A stretch of 64,000 nt of DNA from the NCBI RefSeq assembly GCF_000238775.2, contig NZ_AFEJ02000002.1:1969501-2033500 (forward strand). Direction: 5' to 3'. Below, piece by piece: positions 626-13,417 of this stretch. This DNA comes from Acaryochloris sp. CCMEE 5410. Its GTDB lineage: Bacteria > Cyanobacteriota > Cyanobacteriia > Thermosynechococcales > Thermosynechococcaceae. The notes under the pieces are model-generated. The model saw nothing but the letters and a program-made list of their open reading frames with translations. It did not search any database and was not told the origin of the DNA. A program made the translations under genes and the position numbers. Numbering within the stretch: position 1 is the stretch's first letter; each line of letters starts with the position of its first letter.

Positions 626-1909
626 CTACTGGATGGCCTGTCTCGCCATTGCGATCGCACGTTCTTTCTGGGGATCTTGGCCTTGGGCATAGGGGATAGG
701 GAAGGGCACGACAACATCTGGTGTCACGCCTACCCCCTCTAAGCGAGCCGTTTTATCGATATACACATCACTCACCGCAACATATAGCAAACTTTGATCT
801 GGCATTAGATAGGGGCGTCCTGCCACCACTGCCCCCGCAGTAGAACTCCCAACAACGGGGCCAATATCATATTGCTGAAAGCCATAGGCCAGAATTTCCT
901 TGGCACTGCGACTGCCTTCATTCACGAGCATCACGACAGGCTTATTCCACTGTCCCTGGTAGGTAGATGTGGCCCCATTTCTCCTAATACTGGTCAAACT
1001 GGGACCTCTCGACGTGAACAGGTGCAGTGCCGTCATCGGATCCCCGCCCCACCCATCTCGCAAATCAAGAACGAGGGCATCGGCATTCTTCAAACGGCCA
1101 TAAATCACTTCATCTTCTAACTCTTGCTGATGTGAGTCTCCAGCCAAAGACCAAACATGGATATAGCCAATGCGTTGACCATCCGTTTCAATTACCTGCA
1201 CACTATTAGCGATGGCTTCTACAAACATCTGGGTGCAATCGAAGCGCTTCGGCGTTACTGTGATGGTTTGTTGATCGTTAGGGTCTGCCGTTCTTTGAAT
1301 TCGCACCTTGATGGGTTGGTCCGCTTTGCCCTTAAACGACTGAATGGCTTGAAAAGGTTGACCTGCCACATTTAAGATCTGGTCTCCCACTTTGAGACCT
1401 GCCTTGGCGGCTGGACTGCCTTCAAAGATAGTTTTAATAAAAGTTTTGCCTTGAATCGCCTGGGTGACAATACCAATGCCTTCGTACTGAACCTTTCCCT
1501 CGGGAAACGTGGATTTGAGCTGAGTACGTAATTCTTTAATGCGGGGATAAAAAATGCCCAGTACCTGGTAATAAGCGGGTTCATCCACAGTAAAAAGATG
1601 AGTATGAGAGGTCTGCAACTGATCCAGCATCTCGTTGATCACCTCAGCTTTTTCTGCCCGAGACGATGCCTTGGCTACCTGGGGCTGGTATTGCGATTTC
1701 AAGGCAGCCCAGTCTAAGCTATTGAATTTCGGGTCGTAAAAGTTTTCATTGACGGTGCTCCACACCGCATCCAGTAAGCTGGGTTGTGCAGAAGACACAG
1801 AAGACATCGTTCCCTGCGAGAGCCAAAGCACCAAGCCCATTCCAAGGGTTATAAGGAAGCTCAGAAGATAGCTTTTATGGCGCTTCAGTTTTTGGATAAC
1901 AGTCTTCAT
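626..1909 (-). CDS. S41-family (C-terminal processing peptidase-like) PDZ protease, atypical active site
   Basis: About 427 aa. The start is the ATG at 1907-1909; a TTG six codons upstream is also in frame but less likely. An N-terminal basic stretch and membrane anchor (about residues 15-35) is followed by a helical N-domain, a PDZ domain (about 143-222, with GIGIV and AAKAGLKVGDQIL) and an S41 catalytic fold (DLRDGWGG, then VNEGSRSAKEIL with the predicted nucleophile Ser near residue 335). In CtpA-type enzymes the general-base Lys sits about 25 residues later in a TFGKG-like motif. Here that position reads GSSTAGAVVAG with no Lys. It may therefore use another triad, as S41B enzymes do, or be inactive. 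It probably acts in the periplasm or thylakoid lumen. Confidence 0.8.
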   Translation of the reverse strand: MKTVIQKLKRHKSYLLSFLITLGMGLVLWLSQGTMSSVSSAQPSLLDAVWSTVNENFYDPKFNSLDWAALKSQYQPQVAKASSRAEKAEVINEMLDQLQTSHTHLFTVDEPAYYQVLGIFYPRIKELRTQLKSTFPEGKVQYEGIGIVTQAIQGKTFIKTIFEGSPAAKAGLKVGDQILNVAGQPFQAIQSFKGKADQPIKVRIQRTADPNDQQTITVTPKRFDCTQMFVEAIANSVQVIETDGQRIGYIHVWSLAGDSHQQELEDEVIYGRLKNADALVLDLRDGWGGDPMTALHLFTSRGPSLTSIRRNGATSTYQGQWNKPVVMLVNEGSRSAKEILAYGFQQYDIGPVVGSSTAGAVVAGRPYLMPDQSLLYVAVSDVYIDKTARLEGVGVTPDVVVPFPIPYAQGQDPQKERAIAMARQAIQ

Positions 1910-2044
1910 TTTGTGTCTAACCTGCAATGAGCTGCCTTGCTAAGCCTGATATTTGAGGCTATCCCTGAATGAGACCAATCAATCGTGATGAAGTAATCCT
2001 GTCAGAGTCATGTTCTGATTCCATAACGCTTTGCGCATCATGAG

Positions 2045-2362
2045 CTAACGTTTCATCTGCCTTTGCGGCAAGAACTGTCTGCGCTTCAAATCACGACGTT
2101 GTTTCAGTTTCTGCCTAAATTCCTGCTGTCGCTGATTGAGAAATTCATCAATGTGTCGATGCTGCTTGAGACGGAGCTGCCGATGAAATTCTAGCTGCTG
2201 TTGAAGATGCTGCTGTTGCTGAAGCCTTGGCTGAAGCAAAGACCGCTGCTGACGATATGGCTGGGATTGAACGGGCGTTTGAGCCAGTAGAGACGATGAC
2301 AGGCTAAAGATAAAAGCAGCCGTCAAAAATACGCTCTGGGATCTATGGCAAAGTGCTGTCAT
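2045..2362 (-). CDS. Small exported Gln/Arg-rich protein of unknown function
   Basis: 105 aa from the ATG at 2360-2362; a TTG start 13 codons upstream is possible. The N-terminus is a clear signal peptide (MTALCHRSQSVF, hydrophobic run, LLAQT cleavage site). The mature part is almost entirely Gln, Arg, Leu, His and Lys in a heptad-like helical pattern (repeated QQ, RQ, LKQ), predicting a long, very basic amphipathic helix. I do not recognise a family. Periplasmic helical sensors of the CpxP/Spy type have a similar size and composition, but no LTxxQ motif is visible, so that comparison is weak. It lies between the S41 protease and the ABC binding protein on the same strand. Confidence 0.55.
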   Translation of the reverse strand: MTALCHRSQSVFLTAAFIFSLSSSLLAQTPVQSQPYRQQRSLLQPRLQQQQHLQQQLEFHRQLRLKQHRHIDEFLNQRQQEFRQKLKQRRDLKRRQFLPQRQMKR

Positions 2363-2469
2363 TAAATTGACCTCTGCCCCTAGTGTAACGAGTGAGATCA
2401 ATCGCGAGCTTGAGTGCGTTTCTAACAGCTCAGGTCACAACAAGCTTACGGAACTGCCTCTATCAAAGG

Positions 2470-4224
2470 TCACTCTCTCACCTCTCGAATATCATGAATA
2501 TTCCACGTTACTTTGCCTAAAGCCGTATATTGAGTACCTTCAAAGTCATTACGGACTGCTGCTAGGGCCAACGGATTAATCAGGTAAATGAAAGGTAGGT
2601 ACTCCTGGGCAATCTGTTGGGTCTTTGCATAAATCGCTTTTCGCTTGGCCTCATCGATCTCTTGAGCACCTTCGATATAGAGATCGGCAATTTCCTGTTC
2701 CCAGTCACTTACTGTAAACCCTTGGATTGGTTCACTGGGGGGCTGGGGTTTTTGATTAAACATATGCAAGCCTCCTTCAGGAGACCAGACATTCGCCCCC
2801 GTGTTGGGTTCTAAACCACCCGTCAATCCCAACAGGGCACAGTCCCAATCTAGAGAGTCATCCAACTTATCAACCATCGTGTTGAAGGCGATGGGAGTAT
2901 AGTCCACCTTGATGCCAACTTTCGATAAATCTTGCTTAATCTGAGATCCCAATGTACTCCCTGCCGGGGCCATCAGCGTAAAACGAACGGGGTTACCTTT
3001 GTCATCAAAGAGTTGTCCCCTATTTTTGGTCGTAAACCCAGCTTCTTTCAGGAGTTGTTTGGCCTTCTCCAGATCGTAGTTGTAAACTTTGAGACCTTCC
3101 TCGGGCGACAGATAGTAAGGACTTTGTACAGAGATGGGAGAGTTTTGGGGCAATCCTAACCCTTGGTAGGTATTAGCCAACATCCGATCCCGATCAATCG
3201 CATAGGCCACTGCTTGGCGAAATTTAACGTTATTAAACCACCGTGACTTAACGGGGTTGACCAGAGGCTTATTATTTCTGCGCCCTCGATTGAGATTAAA
3301 GAAAACAAAGGTTGTCCCAAAATCGGGCCCCCCTTCATAGATGGTGAAGTTGCCAGCCTTTTCTTCTCGCTTTAGGAGAGAAAAGGTACTGGCTCGCACT
3401 CCAACAGAATCTAACCCCCCTGAGCGAAATTGCAGAAGGGCTGTATCAGGAGATTCCACAATTTTCCAAATAATGCGCTCAATATTTCCGTTGGCTCGAC
3501 CGGGGATTTGATAGCGCCAGTAAAATGGGTTGCGCCGAAAGACAACCCGCTGGTTGGTTTCATAGGATTCTAGTTGGTAAGGTCCATTGACAATAATTTC
3601 GCTCGGGTCTGTATCCACCCCCCAAGCAGAAATAAATTGAGGATTACCTTTGCGATCTGGCGTATCCACCAATTTCTTGAGGGCATGGGCTGGCAAAATA
3701 TCGACTGCCCCAGCAGTCCGCAAAAAAGGAGCGAAAGGTTCTGGGATAGAAAACTCAACTCGCTGGTCATCTAATTTTTTAACTTTGGGTAAAGCCCGAC
3801 TTTTTCCAATTCTGAGTACATCGCGAGTATCAGTTGGAATAGCTTCATTCAGGTAGACATCGTTATAGGAAAAAACAACATCGTCCGCCGTTAAGGGAGC
3901 CCCATCTGACCATTTCAGATTCGGTCGGAGGGTAAAGATAATTTTGAGTTTATCGGCCGAGAATTCCCAAGACTCTGCGAGGGCAGGCTCAATCTCACCC
4001 GTCAGACCATTCTGGGTGGTTAGCCCTTCATAAATTAAGCCGAAGACATTGTTGGCTTCTTTACTTTGGGAGGAATTAAACGTTTTAGGGGCACTCAGCA
4101 GGACATCAACATACTGGGGAACCCGTGCTGTTTGGGTTTTGAATTGGGAGAGGCTACAGCCAGGGAGTGCGATCGCAACTACCAATACCAAACTCCAAGC
4201 CACCCATCGTCGCAGAAAAGCCAT
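2470..4224 (-). CDS. ABC transporter substrate-binding lipoprotein, family 5 (oligopeptide type)
   Basis: 584 aa from the ATG at 4222-4224; the TTG five codons upstream is less likely. A basic N-terminus, a hydrophobic helix and the lipobox LPGC (Cys near residue 23) mark a lipoprotein. The SBP_bac_5 pattern follows: FNSSQSKEANNVFGLIYEGL, WSDGAPLTADDVVFSYN, IVNGPYQLESY, FRQAVAYAIDRDRML, LLKEAGF. This family binds peptides, nickel or opines outside the membrane and delivers them to an ABC permease. No permease or ATPase genes are adjacent, so substrate and partners cannot be read from context. Length is normal for the family and the frame is intact. Confidence 0.88.
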   Translation of the reverse strand: MAFLRRWVAWSLVLVVAIALPGCSLSQFKTQTARVPQYVDVLLSAPKTFNSSQSKEANNVFGLIYEGLTTQNGLTGEIEPALAESWEFSADKLKIIFTLRPNLKWSDGAPLTADDVVFSYNDVYLNEAIPTDTRDVLRIGKSRALPKVKKLDDQRVEFSIPEPFAPFLRTAGAVDILPAHALKKLVDTPDRKGNPQFISAWGVDTDPSEIIVNGPYQLESYETNQRVVFRRNPFYWRYQIPGRANGNIERIIWKIVESPDTALLQFRSGGLDSVGVRASTFSLLKREEKAGNFTIYEGGPDFGTTFVFFNLNRGRRNNKPLVNPVKSRWFNNVKFRQAVAYAIDRDRMLANTYQGLGLPQNSPISVQSPYYLSPEEGLKVYNYDLEKAKQLLKEAGFTTKNRGQLFDDKGNPVRFTLMAPAGSTLGSQIKQDLSKVGIKVDYTPIAFNTMVDKLDDSLDWDCALLGLTGGLEPNTGANVWSPEGGLHMFNQKPQPPSEPIQGFTVSDWEQEIADLYIEGAQEIDEAKRKAIYAKTQQIAQEYLPFIYLINPLALAAVRNDFEGTQYTALGKVTWNIHDIREVRE

Positions 4225-5831: not shown

Positions 5832-6020
5832 GTGGCGTGGTTTATGGGACTTGGCCTCTCGTTGGGCAGCATTGCCCCAGCCATGGACTCAGATCACGAT
5901 GATGGTGCAACCCATACCAAGAGCCGCAATCTCAACCTGACGGACTTATATGTATTCCCCAAAGACAATCAAAATTCCCATGTTTACAGTGCTTTTGCTT
6001 TTTTTGACCAAGGACCATAA
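5832..6020 (+). pseudogene. N-terminal relic of a DUF4331 exported protein
   Basis: About 62 codons. After a hydrophobic leader (GLGLSLGSIAPA) comes SDHDDG, then RNLNLTDLYVFP, the typical N-terminal block of DUF4331 proteins (SDHxDG...LNLTDLYVF). The frame stops at 6020 after FDQGP, whereas family members usually exceed 300 aa. An upstream ATG at 5821 is out of frame with this segment, so the start is also damaged. Reading: a truncated, non-functional copy. Confidence 0.6.
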
Positions 6021-6644: not shown

Positions 6645-6698
6645 TTAACCTAGCCAAATCCCACTCCAGCAAGTGTTTCCCTGTGTTTGTGTTCATCC

Positions 6699-8723
6699 AT
6701 GTATCTGAATCGACTTATTCACTTTAAGACCCTGTTGCTATTACGAGAAGCATTTACTTCGCTCTTACCCGTCGTCTTAGTGATGAATATTGTTGTCCTA
6801 CTGTCAGGTTTGTCTGACGTGCTGGCATCTCAGGGTGTCGTAGCAGAGGGTTTTATCAACGGAAATGAAGTTAGCCGACTCTACTTCTTCCTAGTTCCGT
6901 TTTTTCTCAACATTTCTCTGAGCACTTTGATGGCCAAGGAGAAAGAGCTTGATCAGGTTAGTACTGTTCTGATTTCAGCTGTTTGTTTTTTGCGCGTGTC
7001 GGGCTTCTTATTTATTGATTCAACCGGCCAAATCCTCTCTTTTCAGGGCTCCGTGATCACCAGTGTCCCAGCCACACTGGTGGCGGTCACGCTGCTCCAT
7101 TATTTCAGTCGATTCTCGTCTCTACAATTTTTTCGAGGTCGATCTGAGGTGAGCCCAGTCCTCCAAAGAACGCTAAACCTCCTGATTCCGGGTCTATTGA
7201 CAATGTTATGTTGTGAGTTGGTAGGTCATGGATTTCGGCTATTTTTTAAGGCCGGTGTTTTTAGCATTTTATTCGCAGCTCTACCTAAGCTTCAGGACAT
7301 TCAAGAAGTCATTCTCTTTAAGCTGATTTCTCAACTCTCCTGGTTCTTCGGGATTCATGGTGAGTATAGTGCCGATGGTTTATTTCGAATTTTAAATGAG
7401 ATTCCATCCTCCCAAGCCGGCAGTATTCACTTCAAAGTCTTACATGATGTATTTATGAATATTGGAGGCTCTGGCTCTACGTTTGTGGTGCCATTAGCAA
7501 TTCTTTCCCTCCCCGGTTCTGCTCCCTTTAAATCCATCGCTCAGCTGAGTCTGCCGTTCGCCCTCTTCAATGTCAATGAGATTTTATTGTTCGGGCTACC
7601 GATCATCCTCAATCCACTCTTTTTAGCACCATTTTTGTTAGCCCCCCTGGTTAATCTGGCCATTGCTCTGACGGCAATTCATCTAGGGGTATTCACCATC
7701 AGTGCCCCTGCCATTAACTGGATGTCTCCTCCCTTATATAGTGCCTATGCGGTCTCTGGCGGATCGGGAGGGGCAGTCCTGACCCAGTTACTTTGTATCG
7801 CGATCGATATGAGTATCTACTATCCATTTTTGCTCCTGGCCAAGCAACAGTCGAAGACGCCATTGGATTTACGCAAGCGCTTGCACAGTGATGCCTACCA
7901 ATTTGTCAACACAGAAATCAATCGCCAAGAAGAGCGACGCTTTATTACTCAGAAAATAGATCAAGTCAGAGGGATGGAAGAGACCCAACGCTTGCTGCAG
8001 CAACTCAAAGGTGGACAGTTTCTTCTGTACTTTCAGCCTAAGGTGGATGCCAAATCAAAAGCACTCGTGGGCTTAGAAACATTGCTTCGTTTCCAAGATG
8101 CAGGGGGTAAAATTACCCCTCCTACTTTTTTACCTATTCTCTACCAACAAGGGCTTTCTAAGGCCGTGGATCAGAAAGTGCTGTCGCTGGTTTTTGACCA
8201 GATCAAACAGTGGCGAGGGGATGGTCAAAAATTGCCTCAGATTAGTATTAACCTGGATAAAGATTTTTTATTAGATCCACCATCGGTAAAAGCTTTTATT
8301 GCCCAAGCCAAACAAGAAGAGATTTACTTTGAACTAGAAATCACTGAGCATACCTACACTTCGGAAGTGCAATCTCTAGCATCAGTGGTGCGGGACCTGC
8401 GAGCAGCAGGGCATCAAGTTTCAATTGATGATTTTGGGGCGGGCTATTCTTCCCTCACCACTCTAGTGTCTCTGGAAGCAGATTCGGTCAAATTAGATCG
8501 CAAACTGGTCGCTGCCCCTGAAGGGGAAAGCCAGCGGGGACAAGTGTTACTGCAGTCTAGTGTAAAGCTCTGTCATGACTTAGGATTTGCTGTAGTGGCA
8601 GAGGGGGTTGAAAGCTTGTCTCAGTTACAGTTAGTGCAGCACTGTGGGGTAGATTTTGTGCAAGGCTATTATACGGGCAAACCCATGCCTTCGGATCAGG
8701 TCAGTCGCTTATTTCAGGCTTAA
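6699..8723 (+). CDS. PTS EIIC-like membrane domain fused to EAL c-di-GMP phosphodiesterase
   Basis: 674 aa from ATG 6699; a TTG at 6687 is in frame but less likely. Residues 1-390 form a polytopic domain like lactose/cellobiose/chitobiose-type EIIC: FGIHG (His220), GGSGST (about 256-261), NVNEILLFGLP (Glu294). The His and Glu correspond to the substrate-contacting pair known from the chitobiose transporter ChbC. A linker (about 390-430) leads to an EAL domain (430-674). Its catalytic residues look complete: Glu460 in GLETLLR, Asn518, Glu547 in LEITE, Asp577-Asp578 in DDFGAGYSSL, Lys598, Glu635 in AEGVES. No EIIA or EIIB domain is attached. Best reading: a sugar-responsive membrane receptor that hydrolyses c-di-GMP; ligand unknown. 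Confidence 0.88.
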   Translation: MYLNRLIHFKTLLLLREAFTSLLPVVLVMNIVVLLSGLSDVLASQGVVAEGFINGNEVSRLYFFLVPFFLNISLSTLMAKEKELDQVSTVLISAVCFLRVSGFLFIDSTGQILSFQGSVITSVPATLVAVTLLHYFSRFSSLQFFRGRSEVSPVLQRTLNLLIPGLLTMLCCELVGHGFRLFFKAGVFSILFAALPKLQDIQEVILFKLISQLSWFFGIHGEYSADGLFRILNEIPSSQAGSIHFKVLHDVFMNIGGSGSTFVVPLAILSLPGSAPFKSIAQLSLPFALFNVNEILLFGLPIILNPLFLAPFLLAPLVNLAIALTAIHLGVFTISAPAINWMSPPLYSAYAVSGGSGGAVLTQLLCIAIDMSIYYPFLLLAKQQSKTPLDLRKRLHSDAYQFVNTEINRQEERRFITQKIDQVRGMEETQRLLQQLKGGQFLLYFQPKVDAKSKALVGLETLLRFQDAGGKITPPTFLPILYQQGLSKAVDQKVLSLVFDQIKQWRGDGQKLPQISINLDKDFLLDPPSVKAFIAQAKQEEIYFELEITEHTYTSEVQSLASVVRDLRAAGHQVSIDDFGAGYSSLTTLVSLEADSVKLDRKLVAAPEGESQRGQVLLQSSVKLCHDLGFAVVAEGVESLSQLQLVQHCGVDFVQGYYTGKPMPSDQVSRLFQA

Positions 8724-12249: not shown

Positions 12250-13417
12250 CCAGGGTTGTTTTACGTTACTCCTAGAAAAAATAGGATGGTTCTACTGACC
12301 AACAGTAGAGAGACCGATGAGCCATCTAATCGATACTTTGAAGCAAGTCCCGGATTTCCGCAGTGCCCATGGCCGTATTCATCCGTTATGGCTGCTGTTG
12401 CTATTGATGGTGATGGGCATGCTTGCTGGATATCAAGGGTACCGTCCGTTAGAAACCTTTGTGAGCGATTATCGCCAGCCTTTAAGTGAGCTATTGGGGC
12501 TTGAGAGCCTCGAAGTTCCGTCTCACTGTACCTTTCGTCGAGTGATGAAGGGGCTTGACTTCCAAGCGTTGAGCCACCAATTTGAAGCATGGATGCTCTC
12601 GAAAGCCCAGACTCACTCTCCCGATAATTATGCAGCCTCCATTGATGGCAAACGGATTCGTCAGGGGCTGACAGATGCCAAGGGGAAGCAGCGTTTTGTA
12701 GGGTTGGTGAGTTTATTTGCGGTGGAAGCAGGCATCACCCTCAAGCTCGAAGCCCTCACTCAGGAGGATAATAGCGAAATCAAAGTCGTCCAGGCTTTGT
12801 TGGAAACCCTTCAACTCGATGGCTTGCTGATTACCATGGATGCCTTACACGCCCAAAAAAACACTTGAGAAGATTGTGGCCTCGGGTAACGACTATCTTG
12901 TGGCGGTCAAATCCAATCAGGGAAGACTTTACGACCACCTCCAGACTTACTTTGAGTGTCTTAAACCCATGGCTGAGCACATCCACTCCGCCCAAAGTAG
13001 AGGACGAGATGAACATCGGTGTATACAGGTTTATGAGCCTGTCGGCATAGCCTTACAGGAATGGGAGGCAATTCGCTCTGTGCTTTGTGTCCAACGATGG
13101 GGCACTCGCAAAGGAAAGGAGTATCACAATACCGCCTATTACATCAGTTCAGCTGCCACCTCACCCCAGCATTGGCAATCTCTGGTCCGAGAACATTGGG
13201 GCATTGAAAATCGGTTGCATTGGCCGAAGGATGTTGTTTTTGGCGAAGATGATTATCGACTCGAAGATGAACAAGCACTGCTCAATTGGTCAGTGCTTAG
13301 AACTATTGGGATTAATATCCTGCGGCTAAACGACTATCAATCCCTCAAAACCGCGATGACTAAGCTTGCTAATCGGGTCGATATTATTTTTTCGCTGCTA
13401 ACTTAAAACAGCCCTGG
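12250..13417 (+). mobile_element. ISAs1-family insertion sequence nested in the IS1-like element
   Basis: 1168 bp. Left end CCAGGGTTGTTTTACGTTA and right end (read inverted) CCAGGGCTGTTTTAAGTTA match at 17 of 19 positions. The element is bounded by the 8-bp direct repeat CTTCTTAG. One transposase gene occupies most of its length, with a frameshift in an A-run. The nearly intact ends and perfect duplication point to a fairly recent insertion. Confidence 0.9.
12317..13406 (+). pseudogene. ISAs1-family DDE transposase with frameshift at an A7 run
   Basis: The N-terminal part (MSHLIDTLKQVPDFRSAHGR) and the DDE residues (Asp in SIDGKRIRQG, Asp in TMDALHAQK, Glu in EHWGIENRLHW) are those of ISAs1 transposases. 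The first frame ends at TGA after DALHAQKNT. The rest continues in the +1 frame as KKTLEKIVASGNDYLVAVKS to a TAA at 13404-13406. The switch is at seven consecutive A residues (12855-12861). Six A would give one open frame of about 363 aa, so either one A was gained or polymerase slippage makes some active enzyme. Confidence 0.85.

Follow-up and report, generated by a model that had tools for sequence, protein, structure and literature searches.

The membrane domain EIIC of the sugar phosphotransferase system (PTS) is on record in proteins of cyclic di-GMP (c-di-GMP) signaling; in the available sections of a 2022 review, PTS_EIIC domains are catalogued from Pfam in c-di-GMP proteins containing GGDEF, EAL, or HD domains, where they are rare (PMC8846402). 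An EAL phosphodiesterase of Vibrio cholerae, PdeS (VC1710), is under the control of EIIA-Glc phosphorylation, according to the accessible part of the respective report (PMC6877527), and transport by EIIC is currently viewed as following an elevator mechanism, as far as the available text of a further paper goes (PMC6048161). In the literature searched, with most subscription journals outside its scope, the 2022 review was the only relevant source found on the combination of EIIC with a c-di-GMP domain; EIIC is not mentioned in the available portion of the main text of PMC1183210, and the available portions of PMC2453333 and PMC10513181 deal with other subjects than EIIC-EAL fusions. Here, a gene is considered which is located at positions 6699–8723 on the plus strand of a 64,000-nucleotide stretch of DNA (hereafter the window, to which coordinates refer unless a relative is named) from Acaryochloris sp. 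CCMEE 5410 (contig NZ_AFEJ02000002.1, positions 1,969,501 to 2,033,500). It encodes an EIIC domain fused to an EAL domain. The EIIC-EAL protein is real, conserved, and rare, and we are slightly inclined to regard it as a PTS-independent, ligand-gated c-di-GMP phosphodiesterase, that is, a membrane receptor built on a sugar-transporter fold.

The EIIC-EAL Fusion Protein

The gene consists of one open reading frame (ORF) of 674 residues if read from the ATG at 6699; an alternative start, the TTG at 6687, would add four residues (678 in total). The ATG is the likelier start because in two relatives, L023 and L025, the aligned ATG is one codon off its equivalent, and in L025 that ATG is the first of the frame. 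Both Pfam domains exceed their gathering cut-offs within this single ORF, PTS_EIIC (PF02378) with 56.6 bits versus 30.7 and EAL with 191.8 bits versus 31.3, which bears out the one-protein fusion described in a first-pass annotation of the window. An artefact of assembly or annotation has been ruled out, because five other cyanobacterial genomes carry the same fusion, with both Pfam domains, in a single open frame.

The EIIC domain (6726–7850, residues 10–384) is of the lactose/cellobiose/chitobiose type, as indicated by the lacE profile in addition to PTS_EIIC. The match to the NCBIfam family lacE/cello_pts_IIC (TIGR00410) comprises positions 12–417 of 424 in the profile (E 2.1e-35) but scores only 122.6 bits, which is below the curated cut-offs (236 for lacE); because a nearly full-length match remains that low, the EIIC half is, by its sequence, a divergent relative of the lactose/cellobiose IIC family. 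Its similarity to the solved cellobiose-type EIIC, ChbC (3QNQ), has an E value of 3.4e-20, and in the alignment His220 (codon 7356–7358) and Glu294 (codon 7578–7580) fall on chain positions 250 and 334 in 3QNQ, which we take to be sugar-contacting residues of ChbC; both residues are where they had previously been placed. Glu294 is kept in all 12 fusions compared and His220 in 11, the equivalent of the latter being Asn in the Photobacterium fusion (L029). For an EIIC of V. cholerae, the available text of the respective study names the glutamate of the GITEP motif (glucose family) as essential for transport and phosphorylation, and implicates a conserved histidine of HP1b in phosphotransfer (PMC12900739). 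These two may be the counterparts of Glu294 and His220, respectively. Hydropathy predicts 11 membrane segments within residues 1–384, while a twelfth listed segment falls inside the EAL domain; known EIICs have about ten membrane spans and form dimers.

Conservation within the EIIC half is not evenly spread: in the six cyanobacterial fusions, the 13 best-conserved stretches of 15 residues are all confined to residues 287–313, a hairpin with the pattern NxNE...FGLPI..NP. This conservation argues against decay of the EIIC half, to the extent that an alignment can speak to it, and a maximum at the sugar-site hairpin would be unexpected for a mere anchor; we infer from it that the site may still bind a ligand.

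In the window protein, the NVNE motif is followed by ILL (with Ile directly after Glu294), where P(I/V) is usual. The first-pass annotation had read this correctly and had added that transport might be altered. Proline follows NxNE in 15 of 15 stand-alone EIICs, and a residue other than proline in 11 of the 12 fusions, L029 being the one that retains it; the stand-alone set consists of hand-picked plasmid matches plus L063, leaves out 3QNQ, and is redundant, as five Enterobacterales in it are close relatives of one another, and so are two Enterococcus. Because ChbC 3QNQ itself has Met in this place (NEM), the missing proline is no proof of lost transport, and the suggestion of altered transport is weakened. 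The loss of the proline as a signature of receptors was dropped for this reason and for the composition of the comparison set; the non-proline residue is kept as a lead, not as evidence for lost transport.

The EAL domain (7986–8684, residues 430–662, as delimited by Pfam) had been described as complete in its metal-binding and catalytic residues, and all nine positions checked are indeed kept: E460, N518, E547, E550, D577, D578, K598, E635, and Q655. These we take to be the metal, catalytic, and loop positions of the domain (the loop-6 glutamate included), with Asp577-Asp578 (codons 8427–8432) presumably forming the pair of the metal site. The nine are intact in 11 of the 12 fusions, and this half is probably an active phosphodiesterase; EAL domains are active as dimers. 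The two domains are connected by a linker (7851–7988, residues 385–430) of low sequence conservation, which appears as a helix in a model of low confidence.

PTS Carriers and c-di-GMP Genes

The EIIC half had been said to lack EIIA and EIIB. In the genome (98.64% complete, 3.83% contamination), PTS_EIIC is matched only once, by the fusion gene, and EI (PF05524), HPr (PF00381), and IIB (PF02302) are not matched at all, in a search that did not include EIIA (PF02255), glucose-type EIIB (PF00367), or other EIIC families. The check for PTS partners in the strain's own genome thus came out negative for EI, HPr, and IIB of the PF02302 type, and it is for this type of EIIB that the claim stands. In the control genomes the same profiles find EI in 7 of 14, HPr in 7 of 14, and PF02302 in 6 of 14. 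EI was found in none of the five distinct other fusion-bearing cyanobacterial genomes (L023/G396, L024, L025/G616, G544, G622), nor was HPr in the three that were searched for it (L023, L024, and L025); completeness is 83% for G396, 75% for G616, 97% for G544, and 93% for G622.

Of 386 genomes sampled from the phylum, PTS_EIIC is matched in 22 at E ≤ 0.001, below the cut-off in 15 (L008–L022) and above it in seven. The seven are the Acaryochloris genome itself, one with a frame of 90 residues (G255, L007), and five in which EIIC is joined to EIIB (G170, G157, G262, G011, and G008; loci L002–L006 and L034–L045). None of these five EIIC-EIIB proteins has an EAL domain, and EI and HPr are found in five of five genomes. 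As to gene arrangement, each of the five has an EI and an HPr match no more than a few kb from EIIC on the same contig; the EIIB is of the glucose type in four of the five and PTS_IIB in L006.

In the five cyanobacteria whose EIIC is of the working type, the carriers are retained; in the fusion-bearing ones they do not show up. Turnover of c-di-GMP, on the other side of the fusion, is to be expected in the host strain, because its genome contains 51 GGDEF stretches, one of which is a frame of 86 residues with a stop.

Distribution and Origin of EIIC-EAL Fusions

The search for further EIIC-EAL fusions, which the first-pass annotation had recommended, yielded five more in cyanobacteria and others in Proteobacteria and Clostridia. 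Exact peptide patterns, run against genome contigs, picked up the cyanobacterial relatives L023 (from an uncultured cyanobacterium), L024, and L025 (51–60% identity in the best segment). A class-wide search of 388 genomes, which scored at most three best candidates per genome, gave five genomes with a match at E ≤ 1e-80, that is, the Acaryochloris genome, G396, G616, G544, and G622. G396 holds the same contig and protein as L023, and G616 the same protein as L025; with each counted once, there are six distinct cyanobacterial fusions, the one in the window included, and both Pfam domains are above cut-off in all of them. The G396 genome belongs to the same family as that of the window, and six further genomes of the window's genus (82–92% complete) gave no fusion. 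Compared with its five relatives, the window protein is 46–58% identical in the EIIC half and 46–69% in the EAL half, the EIIC half being the less conserved one in four of the five comparisons.

In plasmid records, at least six matches cover 80% or more of the query (Pseudoalteromonas, three Tritonibacter, Vibrio, and Photobacterium); records of Acetoanaerobium and Clostridioides difficile reach 69% query coverage, yet turn out to be full fusions once read out. The domain order is the same in the non-cyanobacterial fusions, both Pfam domains are above cut-off in six of six, and so are the nine EAL positions kept; identity to the window protein is about 26–31% over the aligned part. A tree of the 12 fusions and 15 stand-alone EIICs requires two changes; in it the fusions from Clostridia group with EIICs that stand alone, and some branches are long. 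Uniting all fusions costs no more than 1.38 log units (p-AU 0.467), and a single origin is not rejected. In the C. difficile plasmid record (L031/L063), the EIIC-EAL gene is situated just upstream of rlmH, and a separate stand-alone EIIC of the lactose/cellobiose type (L063) is found about 9 kb further on.

Proposed Function and Alternatives

For a ligand-gated phosphodiesterase the following course may be envisaged. The EIIC half would bind a sugar or sugar-like ligand in its old disaccharide pocket, but would not phosphorylate it, because EI, HPr, and IIB of the PF02302 type were not found in the genome. The ligand would shift the equilibrium of EIIC between its outward- and inward-facing (“elevator”) states, and the linker would relay this shift to paired cytoplasmic EAL domains, by which the rate of c-di-GMP cleavage would be altered. 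The family of the EIIC half points to a disaccharide as the putative ligand; a dimer, elevator coupling through the linker, and the direction of the effect are presumed in this course, and motility or biofilm formation may be its outputs. That a transporter has turned into a receptor was already the suggestion of the first-pass annotation; PTS carriers not being found, the intact EAL positions, and the conserved sugar-site hairpin speak for it, while coupling, ligand, and outputs belong to its conjectural part. A bolder version, in which the EIIC fold of cyanobacteria no longer has any part in phosphotransfer and ligand-driven elevator movement switches the phosphodiesterase, so that outside disaccharides are read without a PTS, is tentative, and we would stop just short of favoring it.

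Several points weigh against the receptor. The linker, which would have to transmit the signal, is the least conserved part of the protein (22–44% identity to the five relatives). In one cyanobacterial fusion, L062 (G622; 1459–3525, minus strand), His takes the place of D578 and Ala that of the Asp following the Lys motif (KxD), and catalysis has probably not been retained in every lineage; judged by these exchanges, the EAL half of L062 is likely inactive, or may still be able to bind c-di-GMP but not to cleave it. The genome search, as mentioned above, did not extend to EIIA or to EIIB of the glucose type. The fusions of Proteobacteria and Clostridia, we assume, probably live beside a PTS, and independence from it may not be general. 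A GH3-type glycosidase (8862–11366 in L025, from Leptothoe kymatousa) is encoded about 0.8 kb downstream of the fusion gene on the same strand, with a small ORF matching CesT on the opposite strand between them; it is a weak hint at a beta-glucoside ligand, and such a neighbor is present in one of the three relatives with flanks scanned.

The AlphaFold models, finally, are too weak to judge the linker and the interface. The full-length model has a mean pLDDT of 61 and a pTM of 0.39, with the EAL domain good and EIIC and linker poor; the linker is drawn as a helix (393–440, numbered from the TTG start), with pLDDT below 50 at 388–430. The model of the EIIC half is likewise of low confidence (pTM 0.55); in the structural comparison with ChbC that had been proposed, 3QNQ is the best fold match, being the top entry from the PDB in Foldseek (E 1.8e-9, TM about 0.4) and the top one in VIA-align (rmsd 8.0, 278 aligned residues, and a Z of 12.9, which taken alone would, by the program's own note, be within chance for a helical bundle). 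With both programs the five top matches are PTS EIICs or related PTS permeases, and mostly unrelated proteins follow lower down.

The low identity of the linker would also fit a protein in which the EIIC half serves only as membrane anchor or dimer scaffold, with the EAL domain constitutive or controlled by a partner and no sugar sensed at all, and so would the lower conservation of EIIC relative to EAL in four of the five comparisons. However, it is the sugar-site hairpin that tops the conservation of the EIIC half, and the retention of His220 in 11 and Glu294 in 12 of the 12 fusions also speaks against it; this alternative survives best among those considered but is unlikely. Lower still we place a reversed direction of control, in which sugar would still pass through EIIC by facilitated diffusion, with the EAL domain gating this transport by binding or cleaving c-di-GMP. 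The conserved pocket residues agree with it, the degenerate EAL domain of L062 might still bind c-di-GMP, and the solved ChbC also has a residue other than proline after NxNE; but without EIIB there would be no phosphorylation to trap the sugar, no sugar-uptake gene is among the ten neighboring ORFs (though a 4-alpha-glucanotransferase is encoded 7.5 kb off), and hydrolysis is suggested by 11 of the 12 fusions retaining every EAL position that was checked. That the gene is a recently acquired, functionless one in decay would be in line with its not being seen in the six genomes of the same genus and with the 1.3 kb upstream devoid of an ORF of at least 100 residues, but 674 open codons, domain identities of 46–69% to the relatives, and the kept EAL and pocket columns make this very improbable. 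Least credible of all is control by phosphorylation, assumed for PTS domains in c-di-GMP proteins in the available sections of the 2022 review and exemplified by PdeS, which is disfavored for cyanobacteria as the strain's own genome gave no match to EI, HPr, or PF02302-type IIB, and the five other fusion-bearing ones gave none to EI.

Genomic Context

The fusion gene stands alone between oppositely oriented neighbors. Among the ten neighboring ORFs scanned there is neither a PTS gene (IIA and IIB included) nor one for sugar uptake; the neighbors in the window encode, among others, a MauG-type peroxidase, a DUF748/AsmA-like protein, and 6-phosphogluconate dehydrogenase. In the relatives, a histidine kinase and a receiver/ATPase protein are encoded downstream in L024, DUF1800/DUF1501 genes are located upstream in L023 (whose flank stops just past the fusion gene), and the flank of L025 contains RtcB and the CesT-like protein in addition to the GH3-type glycosidase. 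No neighborhood is shared across the window and the flanks of L023, L024, and L025.

Upstream of the fusion gene, no ORF of at least 100 residues is present between 5377 and 6686; the segment around 5844–6017 resembles a gene remnant by eye, and Pfam gives no match there. Further along the window (12317–13406), a DDE_Tnp_1 transposase is split across two overlapping frames.

Comparison with Known Systems

The architecture is not unique; the new part is the cyanobacterial setting in which no PTS carriers were found. The fusions of Pseudoalteromonas, Tritonibacter, Vibrio, Photobacterium, Acetoanaerobium, and C. difficile have the same domain order; they differ from the window protein in sequence (about 26–31% identity over the aligned part). 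It resembles ChbC and cellobiose-type EIICs (3QNQ, TIGR00410) in sequence, in the aligned His and Glu, in the non-proline residue after NxNE, and in giving the best fold match, but differs from them by a score below the TIGR00410 cut-off, by the lack of IIA and IIB among the scanned neighbors, and by the added C-terminal EAL domain. A sensor Amt protein (6EU6) presumably offers the same principle, a transporter fold fused to a signaling output; it differs, we take it, in sensing ammonium rather than sugar and in having another fold and another output domain.

Should the receptor prove true, cyanobacterial c-di-GMP signaling would gain a sugar input that can be tested. As the genome gave no match to EI, HPr, or PF02302-type IIB, the cyanobacterial version would be a clean system for signaling from an elevator transporter to an EAL domain, free of cross-talk from the PTS.

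With V. cholerae PdeS the window protein would share that sugar status sets an EAL phosphodiesterase; as described in the accessible part of the report, PdeS senses via a separate, phosphorylated PTS protein (PMC6877527), whereas in the window protein the PTS-derived domain is fused and the phosphate carrier was not found. To the proteins of the 2022 review the likeness is that EIIC and a c-di-GMP domain reside in one chain. In its available sections the review treats PTS domains as phosphoreceivers (PMC8846402), whereas the window protein is encoded in a genome in which EI, HPr, and IIB of the PF02302 type were not found; if the proposal is true, EIIC can signal through ligand binding alone, which lies outside the phosphoreceiver view.
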